DNA of 8,808 bases from Candidatus Bipolaricaulota bacterium (lineage in GTDB: Bacteria; Bipolaricaulota; Bipolaricaulia; UBA7950; UBA9294): contig JAUWNS010000095.1 in NCBI GenBank assembly GCA_030612485.1, forward strand, positions 1 to 8,808. Reading direction: 5' to 3'. Below, piece by piece: positions 1 to 8,808 of this stretch. Positions within the stretch are counted from its first letter, which is position 1; each line of letters begins with the position of its first letter. The notes beneath the pieces were generated by a model. It had not been told where the DNA came from and did not search any database. It worked only from the letters and a program-made list of their open reading frames with translations. Made by a program: the position numbers and the translations under genes.

Positions 1-2685
1 CAGGTTGGTCCGTCGGCGTACTTTGATCTCGTCGTTCAACAGCTTGCGCAGCACCTCCCCCGCAAGATTGCGCTGTTTCATCCCCCGCACTTCGGCGAGG
101 AAGGTGTCCGAGAGGATGGAGATGTCGGGCTTGTCGATCCCGACGACCTCGAAGATGTCGATCACCCGGTCCGGCGCGATTGCCTTGTCTACGATCTGCC
201 GCACAGCGGCATTCAGCTCCTCTTCGGGGCGCAGGTGCGTAACGGTGTGCTTGACCAGTGCTGCCTTGACATGCTGGAAAAAGGCGACCTCATCGCGCGC
301 CTCGATCGCCTCCGGCTTTGGTACAGCGAGCGCGAACGCCTGGGACAGCGCGGCCACGGCCTCGATGAACCCCTGTGTCTCTTCGCCTTGCTGAACGATG
401 TGCTCCTCTGCGAATGGTGCGAAGTGCAGCTTCTCCTGCTGGCTGCCCTTCAGATACGGGGTGTAGTCGAAGCCATGGAAGAAACCCCGGCAAATCTCCA
501 GCTTCTCCAGCATGATCGCCACGGCCTCCCGCTGGTCGTATGCGATCTCTCCGCGCCCGGTTCCCTCGGTGTAGTTGTGCAGCGCCTTGCGCAGCGCATC
601 GGCTAATCCGATGTAGTCGACGATCAACCCGCCCGGCTTGTCGCGAAAGACGCGGTTCACGCGGGCGATCGCCTGCATCAACGTGTGCCCCTTCATCGGC
701 TTGTCGACATACATCGTGTGCAGACAGGGCGCATCGAACCCCGTTAGCCACATGTCCCGCACGATGGCGACCTTGAGCGGATCGTTCGGATCCTTAAACC
801 GCTGCGCCAGCCGATCGCGGCGCTGTTTGTTGCGGATGTGAGGCTGCCAGTCCACCGGATCGGAAGCCGAGCCCGACATCACGACCTTGACCGTGCCCTG
901 CTCATCGTCCTCGCTGTGCCACTCTGGATGACGCTTGACGACCTGCTTGTAGACGTCCACGCAGATGCGGCGGCTCATGCAGACGATCATCGCCTTCCCC
1001 TCCATCGCCGACAGCCGCTGGTCGAAATGGGTGAGCAGATCATCCGCGACAAGCTCAAGACGCTTTGGCGTGCCGACAATCTCCGCGAGCTGAGACCATT
1101 TCGACTTCATCCGCTCGACGCGCTCGATCTCCTCCCCTTCGGTGACCTCCTCCAGGTCCTCGTCGATGTGCGGCTTCTCCTTCTCATCGAGGTCGAGCTT
1201 GGCGATCCGACTCTCGTAGTAGATCGGCACCGTCGCCTTGTCCTCCACCGCTTGGTGGATGTCGTACGTGCTGATCGTGTTCCCGAACACGGCGTACGTG
1301 TTACGATCGGACAGCTCGATCGGCGTGCCGGTAAACCCGATGAACGTCGCGTTCGGCAGCGCGTCACGGATGTGACGAGCGAAGCCGTCGATGAAGTCGT
1401 ACTGGCTGCGGTGCGCCTCATCGGCGATCACGACGACGTTGTCGCGATCCGTTAGGAGTGGCATTTCGGGTTCCGACACACGGCTGCTTCCTCTCCCCCT
1501 GGGAGAGGACTGAGGTGAGGGTGCCGCCGAAGGCGGCATGAACTTCTGAATCGTCGAGAAGACCACCCCGCCCGCCGCCACGCTGAGCAGCTTGCGCAGA
1601 TGCTCCCGGCTCTCTGCTTGCTTCGGTGCTTGACGAAGGATTTCGTGACATCGCGAGAAGGTTCCAAAGAGCTGATTGTCGAGGTCGTTGCGGTCGGTGA
1701 TCACCACGATCGTCGGATTGCGCATCTCTGGGCGAAGGACCAGCTTCCCGGCGAAGAACGCCATCGTCAGGCTCTTGCCCGCACCCTGGGTGTGCCAGAC
1801 CACGCCGCCCTGCTTCTTGCCGCCGGGCTTCGAAGTGGCAACTACCTGCTCAATGGCCCGTTGCGTCGCGTGGAACTGGTGATAGGCGGCGATCTTCTTG
1901 ACGATCTCGCCGTCCGAGTCTTCAAAGACGATGAAGTGTCGGACCAACTCGAGGAACCGTGCCCTGTCGAACACGCCCTTGATCAGCGTCTCCAGTTCGA
2001 GATCCGTTGCGGCAGCGATCCTGTCGCCCTCGATCGTCTTCCACGGCAGGAACCATTCGCGCGTCGACGTGAGCGAGCCCATCCGTGCTTCGCGACCATC
2101 GGAGATGATGAGCAGTTCGTTCGTCGCAAACAAACTGGGAATCTCGGCCTTGTACGTCTCGAACTGCTTGCGCGCCGTCTCGATGGTTGCATTCTCGTCG
2201 GCCGGGTTCTTCAACTCGATCACGGCCAGCGGGAGGCCGTTGACGAAGACGACAATGTCTGGGCGGCGGTTATGCTGACCTTCAACAACCGTGAACTGGT
2301 TGACGACGAGCCAGTCGTTCGCATCCGGATTCTCGAAGTCGATCAGCTTCACCTGCTCACCTCGTACGCGACCATCCTCGGCAATCTCGACCTCAACCCC
2401 ATCGGTCAGCATCCTGTGGAACGTTCGATTGCGAAGGATGAGCGACGGCGAATCGACGTGGAGAACCTTGCGGAGGGCCTCTTCCTTGGCTTGAGCAGGC
2501 AGGGCTGGATTCAGGGTATCGATCGCTGCTTCCAGGCGGCCTCGAAGGACTACATCGGCGTAGCTAACGCGTTCAGCGGCTGGCTCGTCAGGAGCAATAT
2601 CGGGGCCGTGGAGAACGGTCCATTCCAGTACCTCAAACCATTCGAGAGCGAGTTCTTCGACGTGGGATTCAGCTATACCAGCCAT
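1..2685 (-). CDS. hsdR: Type I restriction enzyme R subunit, C-terminus cut by window edge
   Basis: ATP-dependent DNA translocase/endonuclease subunit of a type I restriction-modification complex; it works with HsdM and HsdS and cuts DNA away from the recognition site. The frame is open for 895 codons from ATG at 2685 to the left edge with no stop or frameshift. The N-terminus reads [20 protein letters not shown], typical of HsdR. The PD-(D/E)XK nuclease core is visible as D143, E157 and K159 (AVIELKN). Helicase motifs follow: Walker A HTQGAGKS at 298-305, DEAH at 422-425, FIGFTGTP at 448-455, LTGFDAP at about 647-653, and QAIARVNR at about 671-678. HsdR proteins are usually 1000-1100 residues, so roughly 100-200 C-terminal residues lie outside. 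Residues about 384-407 are an odd low-complexity insert made by a palindromic repeat. The start is chosen for its GGAGG and its N-terminal similarity to the family; it overlaps the RAYT stop. Identification is very secure. Confidence 0.97.
1490..1521. repeat. Palindromic CCTCTCC/GGAGAGG repeat unit inside hsdR
   Basis: The stem CCTCTCC (1490-1496) pairs with GGAGAGG (1502-1508) around a 5-base loop, followed by an arm ending GGTGAGGG (to 1521). The same plan of hairpin plus GGTGAGGG arm occurs at 6409-6444 in the same orientation and at 6017-6047 in inverted orientation, where the two copies bound the DUF559 insert in hsdS. Here the unit is translated in frame as a Pro/Ser/Arg/Gly-rich segment of HsdR (about residues 384-407). 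A second small hairpin, GCCGCC-GAA-GGCGGC, adjoins at about 1523-1537. Confidence 0.8.
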
Positions 2686-3338
2686 GGCACCTCCGGTGCG
2701 TGGACCTCGGATTTAGCGTTCGGGTTCTCGCGGTCCAATTCCCATTTTAGCGGATTATTCATAATGTATTCACGAATTCGGTTTAACTCGTCGTCATTTC
2801 GGACGATGTGTTCGTAGTAATTGCGTTGCCATAGCCGCCGATCGAACCGTGGCCATCCAAATTGTTTGACGCCGCGGATATATTCATTGGTCGTCATGGT
2901 TTTGAACCATTGAACAATTCTTGGTAGGGGCACACCTATGTGTGTGCCCGCACTTGTGTGTGCGCCCACACCTGTGTGTGCACCCATATTCGTATATGCG
3001 CCCGCACCTGTGTGTGCGCCCGGTTCATCGGGGCAGACAGGTAGGTCGTGAGGGCAGACACGCAGGGCTGCCCCTACGATGGCAATGATTCCGTGTACAT
3101 GGTTTGGCATCACAGCAAATTGGTCGGTTTGTACCATGGGGAATTTGTGGTTCAATTCCGACCACCATTTTTCAACCATCCGCCCAGCATCATTCAACCG
3201 CATATCCCCATTCACTACATCACCAAACAAGCACACCCGATTCTGCGCGCAGATCGTGCCGAAATACATCCCAGTGCGCGAATAATCCCAATCCTTCAGA
3301 CGGATGGATCGGCGGCGGGTTGCGAGAACGTTATTCAT
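2673..3338 (-). CDS. REP-associated tyrosine transposase (RAYT, Y1_Tnp / IS200-like)
   Basis: Single-strand DNA HUH transposase of the class that mobilises or processes REP hairpins. The protein has 221 residues from ATG at 3338. Visible motifs: N-terminal [13 protein letters not shown] and [11 protein letters not shown]; the metal-binding HUH pair H80 and H82 in [24 protein letters not shown] at about 140-154; and the region [14 protein letters not shown] (172-184), where Y174 or Y175 is the likely catalytic tyrosine, followed by [19 protein letters not shown] as in other RAYTs. Residues about 88-138 are encoded by an in-frame block of REP-type DNA that carries six-residue repeats of the GAHTGV type. 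An upstream in-frame ATG at 3374 lies inside a REP hairpin, so the start at 3338 with a weak AAGG is preferred. The last 14 residues look like former hsdR leader read through, and the stop overlaps hsdR by 13 bases. The frame is intact; activity is unknown. Confidence 0.93.
2690..2694 (-). promoter_or_regulatory. Shine-Dalgarno for hsdR
   Basis: GGAGG lies 4 bases before the hsdR ATG (2685), inside the final codons of the RAYT gene. It supports this hsdR start and shows that the hsdR ribosome-binding site is now embedded in transposase coding sequence. Confidence 0.65.
2924..3077. repeat. BIME-like pair of REP units inserted inside the RAYT gene
   Basis: The left unit (plus strand) is GTAG at 2924-2927 directly followed by GGGCACAC (2928-2935), which pairs with GTGTGCCC (2942-2949). 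The right unit (minus strand) is GTAG at 3077-3074 directly followed by GGGCAG (3073-3068), which pairs with CTGCCC (3057-3052). A GTAG tetranucleotide 5' of a hairpin is the hallmark of REPs recognised by RAYTs. The two units face opposite ways, as in a BIME. The 154-bp block falls between the HUH motif and the IVQWFKTM segment of the transposase and stays in frame. Confidence 0.8.
2938..3022. repeat. 18-bp tandem repeat, about five units, in the RAYT gene
   Basis: Units begin at about 2938, 2956, 2974, 2992 and 3010, with consensus GTGTGTGCGCCCRCACCT; the first and last are degenerate. Because 18 bp equals six codons, the protein carries [24 protein letters not shown] and GTHIGV one after another. 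The unit resembles a partial REP hairpin, and related sequence recurs outside the gene at about 3383-3406. Confidence 0.85.
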
Positions 3339-3362
3339 GGTTTGTGGGCCTTCGGTAAGTCG

Positions 3363-3388
3363 GTAGGGGCGCACCTACGGGTGCGCCC
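3363..3388 (+). repeat. GTAG-type REP hairpin at the phosphatase/RAYT junction
   Basis: GTAG (3363-3366) is followed immediately by GGGCGCACC (3367-3375), which pairs perfectly with GGTGCGCCC (3380-3388) around the loop TACG. The 9-bp stem and GTAG guide match the two REP units inside the neighbouring transposase. It lies between the broken phosphatase-like ORF and the RAYT start, so it probably marks one boundary of the RAYT/REP insertion. A weaker related stretch continues to about 3413. Confidence 0.85.
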
Positions 3389-3676: not shown

Positions 3677-5356
3677 TCATTCGGACAACTCCCGCCCTAC
3701 TAGCCACGAAAGCGCCGAAACGAGCTTCTCCGGTATGGGCAGCAATTGCTCAGTAGCTATCAGTCGTCCACGAAGCGCTTTATTCCTCCCATACTTCTCG
3801 CAAAGCGCGAGATACCGTGCCTCGCCAATAGTTCTTCGAAGCTCGTCCTCATAGTCCTTCTCGAGTCGCCAGATCTGACAGGTACCGTCAGGACATGCAA
3901 GAGCATCCAATTCGGCGTTGAACAACTTCTCCTTGTCGCGCTTAGCTTCGAAGTCTGACGAATCCCGATCGTAGAGGATGCCAACTGGGATGCCGAAAGA
4001 TGAGGCAATCTCATGGAATGGCTTGAGATTTCGTTTCCCCCCCACCGCGACAATGCTTGTGTTAGCTGCCCCCAGATCGGCGCCGAGCCTTCGTGCATAC
4101 TCCGGAAGAGCTAGACGCTCAGTGTCACCTTCAACAAGCAACAGGTGGTCTGCAAAGAACAACTCACTCCGATCAGGATCGAGCTCCTTCTGGAGCTTCT
4201 CCCTATTAACAGTCTCCGGCTTCAGATCAGAGAACTGAATCGTGGTTCCTTCCGTGTCTCTTCGGACAAGACCTACGTGCGTGTAGTCCGGGACTGTTAG
4301 GAAGTGAGGCGAATGCGTCGTGTACACGATTTGGTTGTCGTCCGCGAGCTCTCTGAGCATCCGATATAGCGATCGTTGCATCTGCGGATGGAGGAACATC
4401 TCCGGCTCCTCGATGAGGATTATTGCACCTTGCTTCCTCCTCTTCTCGAACGCCTTGAGTAATGAGAGCACGATCGCATTCTGGAACCCTTCCCCCAACT
4501 CAGTCGCGCTAATGGAAAAACCCTCCTCCCTGACTAGAAGATCCAGCGAGCGGTAGAACTTTTTCGTGTCGAATGCGGCGAATCGAAAGTCGAGCTTCGA
4601 TATGTCTTCTTCTGGATCAAATCCTAGGTACCTTAGAGCCTCAGATCTGAGGTCGTCCTCGAGCTCTTGTAGTGCGTTGGTTCGCAGAAGCGCCATCATG
4701 CCTTCCGAGAGCTCGGAATAGTGTTCCGCCCGCGTAATCGTCTCAATGCCGGTTTCGCGCCGAACCGGGATCACACAACTCGGATCGTGAAAGTCGCAGT
4801 CAATGTCATCCATGAGCTGTCCTAGCAGTGAATACCGAGCTCTCGGAAGATGGTCGGTAAGCGCTCTACTGGTTCCAATGTAAATCAGTGGTACCTGTTC
4901 CTGAACCTCAGACGGGATCGTCACAAGCGGTTTGTACTGGCGCTGCTCCCCTTTTCGAGGAGCTCTGGCTAGTACCTGTGCGGGATCCCCATGCTTATTC
5001 AGACAGGTCTGCTGCAGTCTACGCTCTCCAGAACGTGCCCCCTTCTTGTAACGTGTCCAAAGGAACTCCAATCCATGGATCTCGGTGGGATCGACGTTTT
5101 TGAAGGTCTCGTAGAGGAGAGGGGGGTCAAACCAGATTCGGATCATGATGTCCTTGTCAGGATCTCTGCTGAAGACATCCTCCTCAGTGAAGGAATAGAC
5201 CCGCACCCAGTCGCGCTCCAGAACGCGGCGCAGTGCCTCGAGGAAGTTGCTCTTCCCTGAGTTGTTGGGACCAACCAGCGCGCAAATATCGCCTAGTTCG
5301 ATGTCAAGTTTCTTAATGGAGCGGAAGTTCTCGATCTGGACTCTATCGATACGCAC
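3677..5356 (-). CDS. OLD-family ATP-dependent nuclease (ABC-type ATPase plus TOPRIM)
   Basis: 559 residues. The N-terminal SMC/RecF-like ATPase has MRIDRVQIENFRSIKKLDIE, Walker A GPNNSGKS (29-36), an ABC-signature-like ELGEGFQNA (286-294), Walker B AIILIEEPE (311-319) and the H-loop TTHSPHF (346-352). The C-terminal TOPRIM domain has VEGDTERL (408-415, the metal-binding Glu), VGGKRN (438-443) and YDRDSSD (462-468). OLD proteins are nucleases used in phage exclusion (P2 Old) and in systems such as Gabija GajA; no UvrD/GajB helicase is seen beside this one. The start is GTG at 5356, preceded by GGAGG at a 9-base spacing, and the G is shared with the hsdS stop (TAGTG). This implies translational coupling with hsdS. 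Whether it works with the restriction complex or alone cannot be told from sequence. Confidence 0.93.
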   Translation of the reverse strand: MRIDRVQIENFRSIKKLDIELGDICALVGPNNSGKSNFLEALRRVLERDWVRVYSFTEEDVFSRDPDKDIMIRIWFDPPLLYETFKNVDPTEIHGLEFLWTRYKKGARSGERRLQQTCLNKHGDPAQVLARAPRKGEQRQYKPLVTIPSEVQEQVPLIYIGTSRALTDHLPRARYSLLGQLMDDIDCDFHDPSCVIPVRRETGIETITRAEHYSELSEGMMALLRTNALQELEDDLRSEALRYLGFDPEEDISKLDFRFAAFDTKKFYRSLDLLVREEGFSISATELGEGFQNAIVLSLLKAFEKRRKQGAIILIEEPEMFLHPQMQRSLYRMLRELADDNQIVYTTHSPHFLTVPDYTHVGLVRRDTEGTTIQFSDLKPETVNREKLQKELDPDRSELFFADHLLLVEGDTERLALPEYARRLGADLGAANTSIVAVGGKRNLKPFHEIASSFGIPVGILYDRDSSDFEAKRDKEKLFNAELDALACPDGTCQIWRLEKDYEDELRRTIGEARYLALCEKYGRNKALRGRLIATEQLLPIPEKLVSALSWLVGRELSE

Positions 5357-7149
5357 TAGAGAACACCTCCAACGTCGAGCTCGCCCGAAAGAAGGTTCGG
5401 AAGAAGAACATCACGACACGTTCGGAGAGAACGCGCCTCTTTGAGGTTGGCTAGGACTCTCGAAAGAGGTGTGGTGACTGCGCGTTCGAACGCCCTGATG
5501 AGTCGTTCTCCCGGCTTGGGAATCATCACAGAGGCGAGTGTCTTCCGAGTGATGGTGTCGAAAACCGATCCATGTGCCATTTGCTGCAGGAGCACAGCAA
5601 TCCACCGTGTCGCGTAGTACGTGTAGTAACCGTAGGCGTCGTGGAGTCCGCGCAACCCATAGCAAGATTGATTCATTGCCATAGGGATACCGGCAAGAGC
5701 AAGCCGGCCAACTGTACCTCGTGCGGAGATGATCGTCGTACCGCGAGGAAGAAGCCGTGCTGAAGAACCTTCCAACCCTGCCGGGGTTATCGTTCTCTCA
5801 GTGTCAACCACGAAGATGTCCGAGGCCGCCGGAGCGTCGACAATCGAGAACCAAGGGATGCCCCCGTTCCAGTATTCATCCACGTTTGTCTTTGGCGTCC
5901 CTCCCCCAATAATCTCGACGGTTTTTGCAAAGGGGACAACCTTCCATCCCCGCGGGATCATGCCGAGGGGGGAATCTTGGAAACTGTCGGGGAATAAGTG
6001 GCGATAGCCCGCCACACCCTCACCCCCGCCTCTCCCAGAGGGAGAGGGGCCTACACCCACGGCTTCGACGATTTTGGACAAGACGTGCTCAGGGACATTG
6101 AGAACATCTAGATTGGGGAATCGGAGGACGGTCATGCCGATGGATTGCATGTAGGCATCACGCTTGGCGTCTTTGAGTGACTGGGTTTGATGAATGCCAC
6201 CATCGAGTTCGATCACGAGCTTGTGATCATGGCAGTAGAAGTCGGCAATGTAGTCACCGATCTGATGTTGGCGGCGGAACTTGAGATCCAGAAAACGTCG
6301 ATCTCGCAGCAGCTCCCACAGAATTTCTTCGGCGGGCGTCTGGTTCTGCCTCAGCTCGCGCGCTGTTTCGACAAGCCCTGAGAAGTCGAACCCACCACGG
6401 TAGTCCCTCCCCTCTACCTCTGGGAGAGGGGACGGGGGTGAGGGTTGACTTCGAGCCAGGATCTCACGACGAACCTCTGCGCGCTTGGCAAATTCATCTG
6501 GAATCGGCTTCCCATTCAGGATCGCATTGTCAATGATTGGGTCGAAGTCAATGAACCAGCTCTTGAAGATCGCTCGAGCGATTGCTTCCAACGTTCGATT
6601 CATCCGCCGATTTAGCTCGATCTTGTCGTCTAGCGTCCCAAGGATGTGCGCGATCCTGTCTTGATATGGCTTGGAGGGAAGCACAAGAGGGATGAGATCC
6701 AGGATTTCCTGGTTGAGGGATGGCATTGTCGCGCCATGTGCATGCTGCTCGATCCATGTTCTGTGAGCCCATGTACCAAGCAGATAGGAAACGAATGCCG
6801 GGTTAATCCTATTGCTGTCGAGTCTCAGTCGGATGCAGTCACTACCCTGCACCCACCCTTCTTCTTGAGCCTTCACGAGTGCACGGCGCGACACAGCGCC
6901 CTTCCTGGCAAATAGGATGTCGTTCGCCTGCAGCTTGTACTTCCTGAGACGCGCCACAGTTTCGGCATCGATTCGCGGCATATCGCTGTGGATGAGCTGG
7001 TTGTCTCCGATGTGTTTCACCGCCACAACGGGTATACCGTTCGCTCTGTACGCGGAGGCATGCAGCATCGTGCCGAAGGGGCCCGTCTGGAGTTCCGCAA
7101 GCCCATTCTCCACTAGCTGGCCAAGCGTGGTGTTGCTCCACTCACACAT
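5356..7149 (-). CDS. hsdS: Type I restriction specificity subunit with an embedded DUF559 nuclease domain
   Basis: DNA-recognition subunit of the type I restriction-modification complex; 597 residues, against about 400-460 for ordinary HsdS. Layout: target-recognition domain 1 (about 1-160, with LQTGPFGTMLHAS); first conserved repeat (about 163-203, DRIAHILGTLDDKIELNRRM and FKSWFIDFDP); a foreign segment (about 234-378); target-recognition domain 2 starting at LFPDSFQDSPLGMIPRGW (385-402) and including IGGGTPKT; and the C-terminal conserved repeat (about 552-592, ending LLPNLLSGELDV). The foreign segment holds a DUF559 domain (about 258-362) with LRQNQTPAEEILWELLRD, D303 in YIADFYC and E314 in LVIELDG as candidate catalytic residues. 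It reads through without a stop and interrupts a naturally variable linker, so specificity may be retained. The start at 7149 overlaps a possible upstream small ORF by 8 bases; the Shine-Dalgarno is weak. No HsdM lies within the window. Confidence 0.95.
   Translation of the reverse strand: MCEWSNTTLGQLVENGLAELQTGPFGTMLHASAYRANGIPVVAVKHIGDNQLIHSDMPRIDAETVARLRKYKLQANDILFARKGAVSRRALVKAQEEGWVQGSDCIRLRLDSNRINPAFVSYLLGTWAHRTWIEQHAHGATMPSLNQEILDLIPLVLPSKPYQDRIAHILGTLDDKIELNRRMNRTLEAIARAIFKSWFIDFDPIIDNAILNGKPIPDEFAKRAEVRREILARSQPSPPSPLPEVEGRDYRGGFDFSGLVETARELRQNQTPAEEILWELLRDRRFLDLKFRRQHQIGDYIADFYCHDHKLVIELDGGIHQTQSLKDAKRDAYMQSIGMTVLRFPNLDVLNVPEHVLSKIVEAVGVGPSPSGRGGGEGVAGYRHLFPDSFQDSPLGMIPRGWKVVPFAKTVEIIGGGTPKTNVDEYWNGGIPWFSIVDAPAASDIFVVDTERTITPAGLEGSSARLLPRGTTIISARGTVGRLALAGIPMAMNQSCYGLRGLHDAYGYYTYYATRWIAVLLQQMAHGSVFDTITRKTLASVMIPKPGERLIRAFERAVTTPLSRVLANLKEARSLRTCRDVLLPNLLSGELDVGGVL
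5366..5370 (-). promoter_or_regulatory. Shine-Dalgarno for the OLD gene inside the hsdS 3' end
   Basis: GGAGG is placed 9 bases before the GTG start at 5356 and within the last codons of hsdS. Together with the TAGTG stop/start overlap it decides the GTG start and indicates coupled translation from the hsdS message. Confidence 0.7.
6017..6047. repeat. Palindromic repeat unit, 3' boundary of the DUF559 insert
   Basis: CCCTCACCCCCG (6017-6028) is followed by CCTCTCC (6029-6035), which pairs with GGAGAGG (6041-6047) around CAGAG. It is inverted relative to the copies at 6409-6444 and 1490-1521. In HsdS it is translated as part of the Gly/Pro/Ser-rich run near residues 367-379. Confidence 0.85.
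6409..6444. repeat. Palindromic repeat unit, 5' boundary of the DUF559 insert
   Basis: CCCCTCT (6409-6415) pairs with AGAGGGG (6425-6431), then comes an arm ending GGGGGTGAGGG (6434-6444). It has the same orientation as the hsdR copy and is inverted relative to 6017-6047. It is translated in HsdS as SQPSPPSPLPEVEGRD (residues about 234-249). Confidence 0.85.
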
Positions 7150-7294: not shown

Positions 7295-7774
7295 CTACCT
7301 TTCCTTGGTCAAGAAATACAGAAGGAGAAGGCCAAGCGCTACTATCGTAATCCCTTGGAGCCATTCCCTCTGGTGCTTACTCAGTGCAAGCTTGCCAAGG
7401 AAATCTTTGAGAACTGGAAACGCTTCATCGGGCGCTGCCGGATCGAAACCGACATATTCCCTCCCTGTAAGCAGCGCAAGTTTCCGGTTATCCAACCCTG
7501 ATTCCACAAGCGGTATAACAGGGATGTTTGCCATCTCTGCGCAGCCGCTCTCCTGTTGGACCCAAGCGGACTCACTTCCACGTTTCGTAAGAAAAACAAG
7601 CATTGCGTCGCTTAAGCGGATGGCTTCTTTGATCTTGTCCGTAACAAGATCTCCCGGTTGAGGATCGTTCTCATACGCGTAGGCCTCCACCCCGATTTGT
7701 TGTAGTGCATGCACGATTCGCTGAACTGCATCGAAATCTTCCGAGTTATGGCTCATAAAAACTCTATACGCCAT
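7295..7774 (-). CDS. TIR-domain protein with C-terminal transmembrane anchor
   Basis: 159 residues. Residues 1-130 form a TIR fold: the first strand MAYRVFMSHNSEDFD, the AYAYENDPQPGD loop, the helix TDKIKEAIRLSDAMLVFLT, and WVQQESGCAEMANIPVIPLVE, in which E75 is the likely catalytic glutamate of NAD-cleaving TIRs. After a linker, residues about 138-155 (WLQGITIVALGLLLLYFL) form a single membrane helix with a short basic tail, placing the domain on the inner face of the membrane. Bacterial TIR proteins commonly act as NAD-depleting or signal-producing effectors in phage defence (Thoeris ThsB, CBASS and Pycsar effectors). No ThsA, cyclase or STING-like partner is visible here. The start at 7774 is chosen over an upstream ATG because of AGGAGG 4 bases ahead and because MAYRVF begins the TIR fold. 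Flanking direct repeats suggest that it arrived as a cassette. Confidence 0.92.
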   Translation of the reverse strand: MAYRVFMSHNSEDFDAVQRIVHALQQIGVEAYAYENDPQPGDLVTDKIKEAIRLSDAMLVFLTKRGSESAWVQQESGCAEMANIPVIPLVESGLDNRKLALLTGREYVGFDPAAPDEAFPVLKDFLGKLALSKHQREWLQGITIVALGLLLLYFLTKER

Positions 7775-7777
7775 GAT

Positions 7778-7784
7778 CCCTCCT
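7778..7784 (-). promoter_or_regulatory. Shine-Dalgarno for the TIR gene
   Basis: AGGAGGG ends 3 bases before the ATG at 7774. This strong site fixes the start at MAYRVF rather than the ATG 21 bases upstream. Confidence 0.75.
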
Positions 7785-7873
7785 GTGCAAGTCATCTTGC
7801 TGCAGAACAGAAACAGATGTTACTCTCGCTGCGCCATTTGAACGCGATCCTCGCTCCTTCTCATCAGTTCTAG

Positions 7874-8256: not shown

Positions 8257-8808
8257 CTATGCCTTCCAGATGGGGCACTCCTTCCAATTATCTGGGATGT
8301 CCATGTAGCTCTTGGGTATCGTGGAAAACCCTGCCAGCAGGGTCTCCAAACGCTCCATCCACTTGCTCTGGAGTGCGATCTCGCGCAGGCAATGGCGACA
8401 GATGGTCAAGATCGCAAAGACCCTCTTATTCTCCACCTTGACGGGCGTATGCCAGTCTGGGTAGTCAGTAATTCGTGGGATGATCGGCTTCAGACCAAGC
8501 ACACGGTTCCACAGTCTTGCGTGATGGGCAACGATGTTCCGAATCGTGTTCAGAGATAGCAGCCACGACTCGAAAACCTTGTGGGGCATCCCGAACTCCG
8601 ATGCAACAGCTGTCTTGACCTTGCTGGAGGAGTTCCGAAAGAAGGTCAAGACGCTCCCAAAGGACATGACTTCAGTGACCATCCACACGGGGAGATACCG
8701 GTGAGAGTCGCCATACTTGGCTTGGAAATGCTCCACGAACGTCTCTTTGCTGCGCTCAGTTTCTTCGGCTATCCGGGCAAGAAACTCGTCGTGATCGTCT
8801 GGGCTCAT
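8257..8808 (-). CDS. Abi_2-type (AbiD/AbiF-like) HEPN abortive-infection protein, N-terminus outside the window
   Basis: 183 residues are visible up to the right edge. The Met at 8808 coincides with the edge and is probably internal, because Abi_2 proteins are about 300 residues and this segment resembles their middle and C-terminal parts. Recognisable features: YLPVWMVTEVMSFGSVLTFF (38-57) and SLNTIRNIVAHHARLWNR, in which R90-x4-H95 (RNIVAH) is the HEPN ribonuclease motif. The family comprises lactococcal AbiD/AbiF-like proteins that block phage growth, and the HEPN motif suggests RNA cleavage as the mechanism. It is the first gene of the visible island in the direction of transcription. It is separated from TIR by about 480 bp, so it is likely a separate unit. 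Confidence 0.85.
   Translation of the reverse strand: MSPDDHDEFLARIAEETERSKETFVEHFQAKYGDSHRYLPVWMVTEVMSFGSVLTFFRNSSSKVKTAVASEFGMPHKVFESWLLSLNTIRNIVAHHARLWNRVLGLKPIIPRITDYPDWHTPVKVENKRVFAILTICRHCLREIALQSKWMERLETLLAGFSTIPKSYMDIPDNWKECPIWKA

Follow-up and report, generated by a model that had tools for sequence, protein, structure and literature searches.

How a DUF559 nuclease domain came to lie, in frame and between inverted palindromic repeats, inside the type I restriction-modification (R-M) specificity gene hsdS is the question raised by the stretch of Candidatus Bipolaricaulota DNA analyzed here (8,808 nucleotides; hereafter, the window). A first-pass annotation, made from the sequence alone, offered two readings: a compact mobile unit that spreads as a translated passenger, or a specificity subunit that has acquired a nuclease and with it could cleave at the target site without HsdR. 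From the comparisons described below, we consider the insert to be, probably, one copy of a small mobile element that consists of a DUF559 nuclease gene between inverted REP-like palindromes and is translated as a tethered passenger.

Anatomy of the Insert in HsdS

The hsdS gene (5356–7149, minus strand) was recognized from its open reading frame (ORF), Pfam, and PADLOC, which labels the product Specificity_I; it encodes 597 amino acids and has the two target-recognition domains (TRDs) and the conserved regions (CRs) of a type I HsdS. Pfam splits Methylase_S into two stretches with DUF559 between them. The whole element, palindrome-DUF559-palindrome, occupies 428 bp (6017–6444, minus strand) in frame with hsdS, which confirms the insert as first described. 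The protein had also been described as longer than usual, and the linker between CR1 and TRD2 indeed measures 191 aa, compared with mostly 28–50 aa in uninserted relatives and about 180–240 aa in those with DUF559. The domain in this linker is complete, as had been claimed, comprising HsdS residues 261–363 (6061–6369, minus strand), and matches the PF04480 profile with an E-value of 3.6e-36 and 123.8 bits (curated cut-off, 20.6).

Each edge of the insert is composed of the tail CCCTCACCCC and a CCTCTCCC/GGGAGAGG hairpin, inverted relative to the other edge. One palindromic unit (6017–6049, plus strand), with its tail outward and its hairpin inward, encodes the C-terminal tether of the insert; the inverted copy (6405–6444, minus strand) encodes the N-terminal tether PSPPSPLPEVEG. 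The inversion reported for these edges is borne out by arms of 13 nt at 100% identity (6016–6028/6433–6445) and 21 nt at 95% identity (6029–6049/6409–6429). A fuzzy unit model recovers both edges (6017–6047, plus strand; 6411–6444, minus strand), and on Markov-1 shuffled windows it gave any match in only 1 of 30. The unit search also located a third palindromic unit, without DUF559, in frame inside hsdR (1490–1521, minus strand; approximately residues 388–399). An Rfam search of the window returned no match, and Pfam identified no intein domain in HsdS. Since none of the codons ATG, GTG, and TTG occurs in frame at HsdS residues 225–300, it seems that the nuclease is produced solely as a tethered part of HsdS.

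In the structure predicted for HsdS by AlphaFold (mean pLDDT 85.9, pTM 0.55), a confident DUF559 domain lies between two low-confidence tethers. Confidence falls below 50 at residues 195–200, 235–254, and 367–379, and the latter two segments are the translated palindromes around DUF559. Modeled alone, the domain reached a pLDDT of 84.7.

Linker States Among HsdS Relatives

Uninterrupted alleles, which the first-pass annotation had proposed to look for, were found among the relatives retrieved with the whole protein (best 120 of 7965 matches). P0097, 86% identical to the window HsdS across 203 aa of TRD1 and CR1, has a plain linker. P0002 is identical to the window across the same 203 aa and only 28% identical in the TRD2 half; its linker of 83 aa, like that of P0010 (100 aa), contains translated palindromes and no DUF559. 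The palindrome-only status of these two proteins was assigned by reading their sequences, as the automatic class of this name (5 rows) includes DUF559 holders missed by the pattern, P0134 and P0147 among them. One HsdS linker therefore occurs in three states: uninserted in P0097, carrying palindromes alone in P0002, and carrying both palindromes and DUF559, as in the window.

The idea that the element stimulates TRD swapping was considered and rejected, as the six half-swapped HsdS pairs comprise proteins with and without inserts and show no visible enrichment. In P0094, the same HsdS linker contains a GIY-YIG domain, with another translated repeat (RLPAGQAG) after it. Separately, an N-terminal nucleotidyltransferase domain (PF18765/PF01909) is present in the HsdS proteins P0006, P0007, P0041, P0112, and others.

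Embedded Copies in Type I Restriction-Modification Proteins

A search of long proteins with the DUF559 region gave 906 matches, of which the best 120 were examined. By Pfam label, or by flanking sequence where a label was lacking, all of these 120 hosts are HsdS, HsdM, or HsdR, with copies at no fewer than three sites in HsdM and at least two in HsdR. P0011, P0021, P0071, and P0088 (<120 bits) were left out of the 133 copies for clustering, active-site, and palindrome scoring. Rather than carrying DUF559 without repeats, the relatives show the translated palindrome signature on both sides in 115 of the 123 copies with enough flank, versus 0 of 120 positions drawn at random from the same proteins; on one side alone, 8 and 15 of the 120 random positions scored. 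All eight copies that fail the two-sided score resemble repeat variants or cut-off ends.

DUF559 sequences cluster by host gene, with 8 label changes along the clustering versus 47.5 when labels are shuffled. Four proteins among the best 120 carry two copies. Those of P0122 each group with others at their own site, and the copies of P0121 group with those of P0122; in P0123 and P0124, each an HsdR, the two copies occupy different sites and are sisters. Host and DUF559 distances correlate at 0.24 for HsdS and at 0.59 and 0.28 for two hand-chosen HsdM sets of 17 and 20 proteins, the first of which includes P0185 with its mixed site. Clustering by host gene and site fits site-specific homing and also descent with the host gene. 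Similarly, the identical DUF559 domains of P0150 and P0180, within HsdM proteins that are 81% identical, fit recent transfer as well as allelic recombination.

DUF559 Loci in Genomes

At an E-value of 1e-3, PF04480 is matched in 108/299 sampled Pseudomonadota and 73/198 sampled Desulfobacterota genomes; matches below 1e-20, here termed strong DUF559, occur in 77 of the 299 Pseudomonadota genomes. From the best PF04480 matches, 62 genomic loci were used, 46 of them in open frames shorter than 250 aa. Inverted flanks scoring >15 were found at 41 of the 62 loci, compared with 1 of 166 control ORFs (80–300 aa, from 20 stretches of the same genomes; Fisher p 2e-28), and at 12 of 20 loci when only matched genomes were counted; the other 21 of the 62 fall below the threshold. 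In the first version of this test, 45 of 63 loci (window included) exceeded the 99% level of shuffles. At this level, which is lower than the score threshold above, direct left-right matches also passed in 35 of 63 and cross-locus inverted pairs in 32%, since each unit is a palindrome in its own right and different genomes share the units; for flank repeats, the comparison with control ORFs is the informative one. L007 is the second piece of the gene L006 and was excluded from the flank tests and from the similarity correlation reported below. As a general palindrome partner, the GIY-YIG domain was tried and discarded: flanks scored >15 in 0 of 29 loci and >12 in 2 (one short locus of 30 dropped; inner margin slightly narrower than for DUF559). 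At one locus, L034, a complete heads-out palindrome doublet, instead of a single unit, seems to lie on either side of the DUF559 gene.

Insertions of the same unit elsewhere, a further suggestion of the first-pass annotation, were found in HsdS, HsdM, HsdR, AsnB, and DNA methylases. Pfam labels of hosts in the same frame include asparagine synthase (L023), N6_Mtase/HsdM_N (L026), Methylase_S (L064), N6_N4_Mtase (L004), DUF1156 (L040), and HSDR_N (L092); by reading, L045 resembles the L040 host, with the DUF1156 part missing from its locus. DUF559 also stands ahead of CbiG_C (L009, L010, L012), Radical_SAM (L039), a solute-binding protein (L041), and a pilin-type N_methyl motif (L063), cases that may be joined frames rather than insertions. 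In genome G268, a DUF559 domain 57% identical to that of the window lies in frame in HsdR.

In asnB, the stretch measures 780 nt in G272 and 66 nt in the related G613, which is shorter by 238 codons, and the site is empty in all three relatives compared (G613, L119, and L120); the frame of the G613 gene changes further downstream. In Synechocystis sp. B12, the unit breaks a DUF1156 gene out of frame, with a one-base gap upstream in that gene; the insert edges fall in a variable linker, making their positions approximate. Orthologues from Planktothrix, Nostoc, and Calothrix are without the insert, and the Geminocystis DUF1156 protein is without the DUF559 unit. The latter protein (L192) has another, unrelated-looking in-frame insert (MANGDGVMADGD...). 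A copy in the HsdS of M. capsulatus is frame-broken (draft).

In Azospirillum, DUF559 occupies the same stretch of six related replicons and appears stable. No empty plasmid sites were found for it; NZ_CP007794 matches the stretch and is missing from the plasmid DUF559 matches. With the lineage of the window as query, DUF559 was rare in plasmids and phages, being detected in 28 of 72,556 plasmid records at 1e-10, some of them chromosome-sized, and in 2 of 50,697 phage records at 1e-8.

Palindromes Without the Nuclease

The palindromes also occur alone. In the repeat-rich genome G092, 20 stretches picked for pattern matches contain 64 units, which form 13 heads-out pairs, no heads-in pairs, and 8 same-direction neighbors within 300 bp. 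The heads-out pairs reproduce the arrangement of the units in the window and end sharply at CCCTC...GAGGG, matching the window boundaries at 6017 and 6444; the lone repeats thereby share their ends with the insert, in agreement with the boundaries first proposed. When the 13 doublets were checked by eye, no target-site duplication was evident.

Counting a genome with three or more units as palindrome-positive, 38 of the 77 genomes with strong DUF559 were positive, versus 12 of the 222 without (299 genomes; G+C content uncontrolled). A pattern control was near zero for this count; another control is not clean, its reversed pattern resembling a repeat variant. Strong DUF559 is missing from nine genomes that have at least five units. 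As a control gene, GIY-YIG was compared in 150 genomes, taken to be the first 150 of the series: palindromes occurred in 18/70 genomes with it versus 7/80 without, an association that was weak within DUF559-negative genomes (4/48 versus 3/73), while for DUF559 in the same set the counts were 18/29 and 7/121. Nuclease identity and palindrome similarity also co-vary across 42 loci (Spearman 0.44; 0.34 across phyla), with 0 of 999 permutations as high.

The Nuclease and a Proposed Mechanism for Its Spread

The probable active-site codons D303, E314, and D316 lie at 6202–6243 (minus strand). D303 and E314 had been named as candidate catalytic residues and are where they were said to be; together with D316, D327, R330, E274, H295, and R267, they are invariant in all 129 embedded copies, the window included. 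A stop codon interrupts 2 of the 62 genomic DUF559 domains. In nine chosen pairs of close loci, not all independent, pN/pS ranged from 0.12 to 0.27, which indicates purifying selection on the nuclease. The DUF559 profile matches 3hrl (endonuclease-like) at 1e-30 and 3r3p ("Mobile intron protein") at an E-value of 7e-4; the latter we take to be I-Bth0305I. Judged from these residues and homologies, the active site appears intact and DUF559 presumably cleaves DNA.

According to the explanation that we prefer, DUF559 would be a PD-(D/E)XK nuclease resembling Vsr and homing endonucleases, which would recognize and break either a target or the palindromic ends; the element would then be copied in by the repair system of the cell, in a homing- or REPtron-like manner. 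Short doublets without a gene would represent its non-autonomous form. In the window, the units are read through as disordered tethers and the insert length keeps the frame, so HsdS probably still functions with the element inserted in a permissive linker. That the nuclease drives the unit we infer from palindrome tracking, co-variation, selection, and homology to a mobile-intron protein. The compact unit translated as a passenger, as first proposed, is well supported by its presence in HsdS, HsdM, HsdR, AsnB, and DNA methylases and by the palindromes found alone; its cleavage and movement, and with them its spread, would be the steps that connect these sites.

Alternative Origins of the Insert

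The insert could instead be a domesticated fusion, in which a type I enzyme gained a host-serving nuclease that cuts near HsdS targets or replaces HsdR cleavage. Such a fusion would account for the invariant active-site residues of the embedded copies, for the many proteins that carry DUF559 in the same HsdS linker, and for the restriction of the best 120 of the 906 long hosts to type I R-M subunits. However, a homing enzyme would equally show selection on its nuclease, the same unit lies at several sites in HsdM as well as in HsdR and AsnB, and most genomic loci (46/62) are short open frames; given also the out-of-frame interruption in Synechocystis sp. B12 and the frame-broken copy of M. capsulatus, we regard domestication as quite improbable. 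For the proposal of the first-pass annotation that HsdS could cut at its target with its own nuclease, the intact active site is the sole evidence, and the occurrence of the unit in unrelated hosts speaks against it as the principal account. A somewhat less improbable, but still unlikely, alternative is that a few old insertions per site were inherited with their hosts, the palindromes being only recombination or RNA elements and nothing moving now. That DUF559 clusters by host gene and site, that host and DUF559 distances correlate, and that the Azospirillum stretch looks stable are all in line with inheritance. Against it stand the asnB insert of G272, missing from three relatives, the sister copies at two sites of one HsdR, and the difference in DUF559 between the TRD1-identical window and P0002, for which loss or swap is also possible.

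Very unlikely, in our judgment, is that RAYT (HUH) transposases move the palindromes as REP repeats and that DUF559 is an accidental passenger. The window does contain a RAYT-like ORF (2673–3374), although its match to NF047646 (51.2 bits) is below the cut-off of 80, and both REP dimers and intragenic REPs are described in the excerpted text of one account (PMC3733652). RAYT also goes with the palindrome, which is present in 22/89 genomes with RAYT versus 28/210 without, and in 20/27 versus 18/50 among DUF559-positive genomes. Without DUF559, however, RAYT is not predictive (2/62 versus 10/160), whereas DUF559 is predictive both with RAYT (20/27 versus 2/62) and without it (18/50 versus 10/160), and logit coefficients for palindrome presence are 2.8 for DUF559 and 0.8 for RAYT. 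Across the 299 genomes, palindromes track DUF559 much more than RAYT transposases, and DUF559 is itself flanked in 41 of the 62 loci.

Relation to Known Elements

As far as the consulted portions of two sources describe them, REPs are short tailed palindromes that form inverted doublets mostly 20–100 bp apart, some inside genes (PMC3733652), and their movement is proposed to involve the enzyme whose gene they flank, in RAYT REPtrons (PMC3733652; PMC6006769). The element described here is similar in its one-end-tailed palindromes, its inverted doublets, some of them intragenic, and its flanking of the gene for the proposed mobilizing enzyme; as in REPtrons, the tailed palindromes are multi-copy and arranged in inverted doublets (in the 20 pattern-chosen stretches of G092). 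It differs in that the flanked enzyme is a PD-(D/E)XK nuclease instead of an HUH tyrosine transposase, and in its tail, which is CCCTCACCCC instead of the GTAG or CGTC of REPs. Rickettsia palindromic elements, in the excerpt available of PMC10969869, are about 150 bp long with an ORF for a conserved peptide. They too are translated palindromic inserts, in frame in unrelated genes, but the present insert contains a full nuclease domain and its hosts span several phyla.

Vsr-fold homing endonucleases (3r3p) resemble DUF559 by profile homology, and the DUF559 lineages likewise cluster by site; unlike homing endonucleases, the element has palindromic ends, the host protein retains the insert, and no intron or intein was seen. 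The gene-less doublets recall MITEs in being short inverted-repeat pairs with sharp ends in several copies, yet a nuclease is proposed as their partner in place of a transposase, and target duplication is not evident at the 13 doublets inspected by eye. The Caulobacter protein VsrA shares the Pfam domain DUF559; in the part of the report consulted (PMC12907096), VsrA is needed for the DNA-damage response in cells without a methyltransferase, and it is encoded by its own gene and has a proposed repair role. Among the matches listed in a search of open-access PMC titles and abstract starts, no paper linked DUF559 to palindromes or in-frame insertion.

We see about even chances that these elements form a class of selfish DNA of a new kind: a Vsr-like DUF559 nuclease, not a transposase, would mobilize REP-like palindromes, and the element would insert in frame and persist as a tethered passenger domain without splicing, with lineages specialized to type I R-M sites and with gene-less doublets explaining palindrome families that have no known transposase. 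If so, a role would be found for many proteins of the DUF559 family, whose domain is common and of unknown function, a widespread palindrome family would acquire its cognate enzyme, and a splicing-free, in-frame parasitism of proteins would have been described.

Neighborhood of the Insert

The window is a dense defense region. According to its ORF, Pfam, and PADLOC, hsdR (1–2685, minus strand) has its 3' end beyond the window, and its start is overlapped by the RAYT-like ORF, a Y1_Tnp protein. An OLD/GajA-like ATPase-TOPRIM protein (3677–5356) is encoded between hsdS and hsdR, and genes for a TIR-domain protein (7295–7795) and an AbiD-like protein (8257–8808) are also present. Inside the RAYT-like ORF lies an 18-bp tandem repeat (2933–3022).
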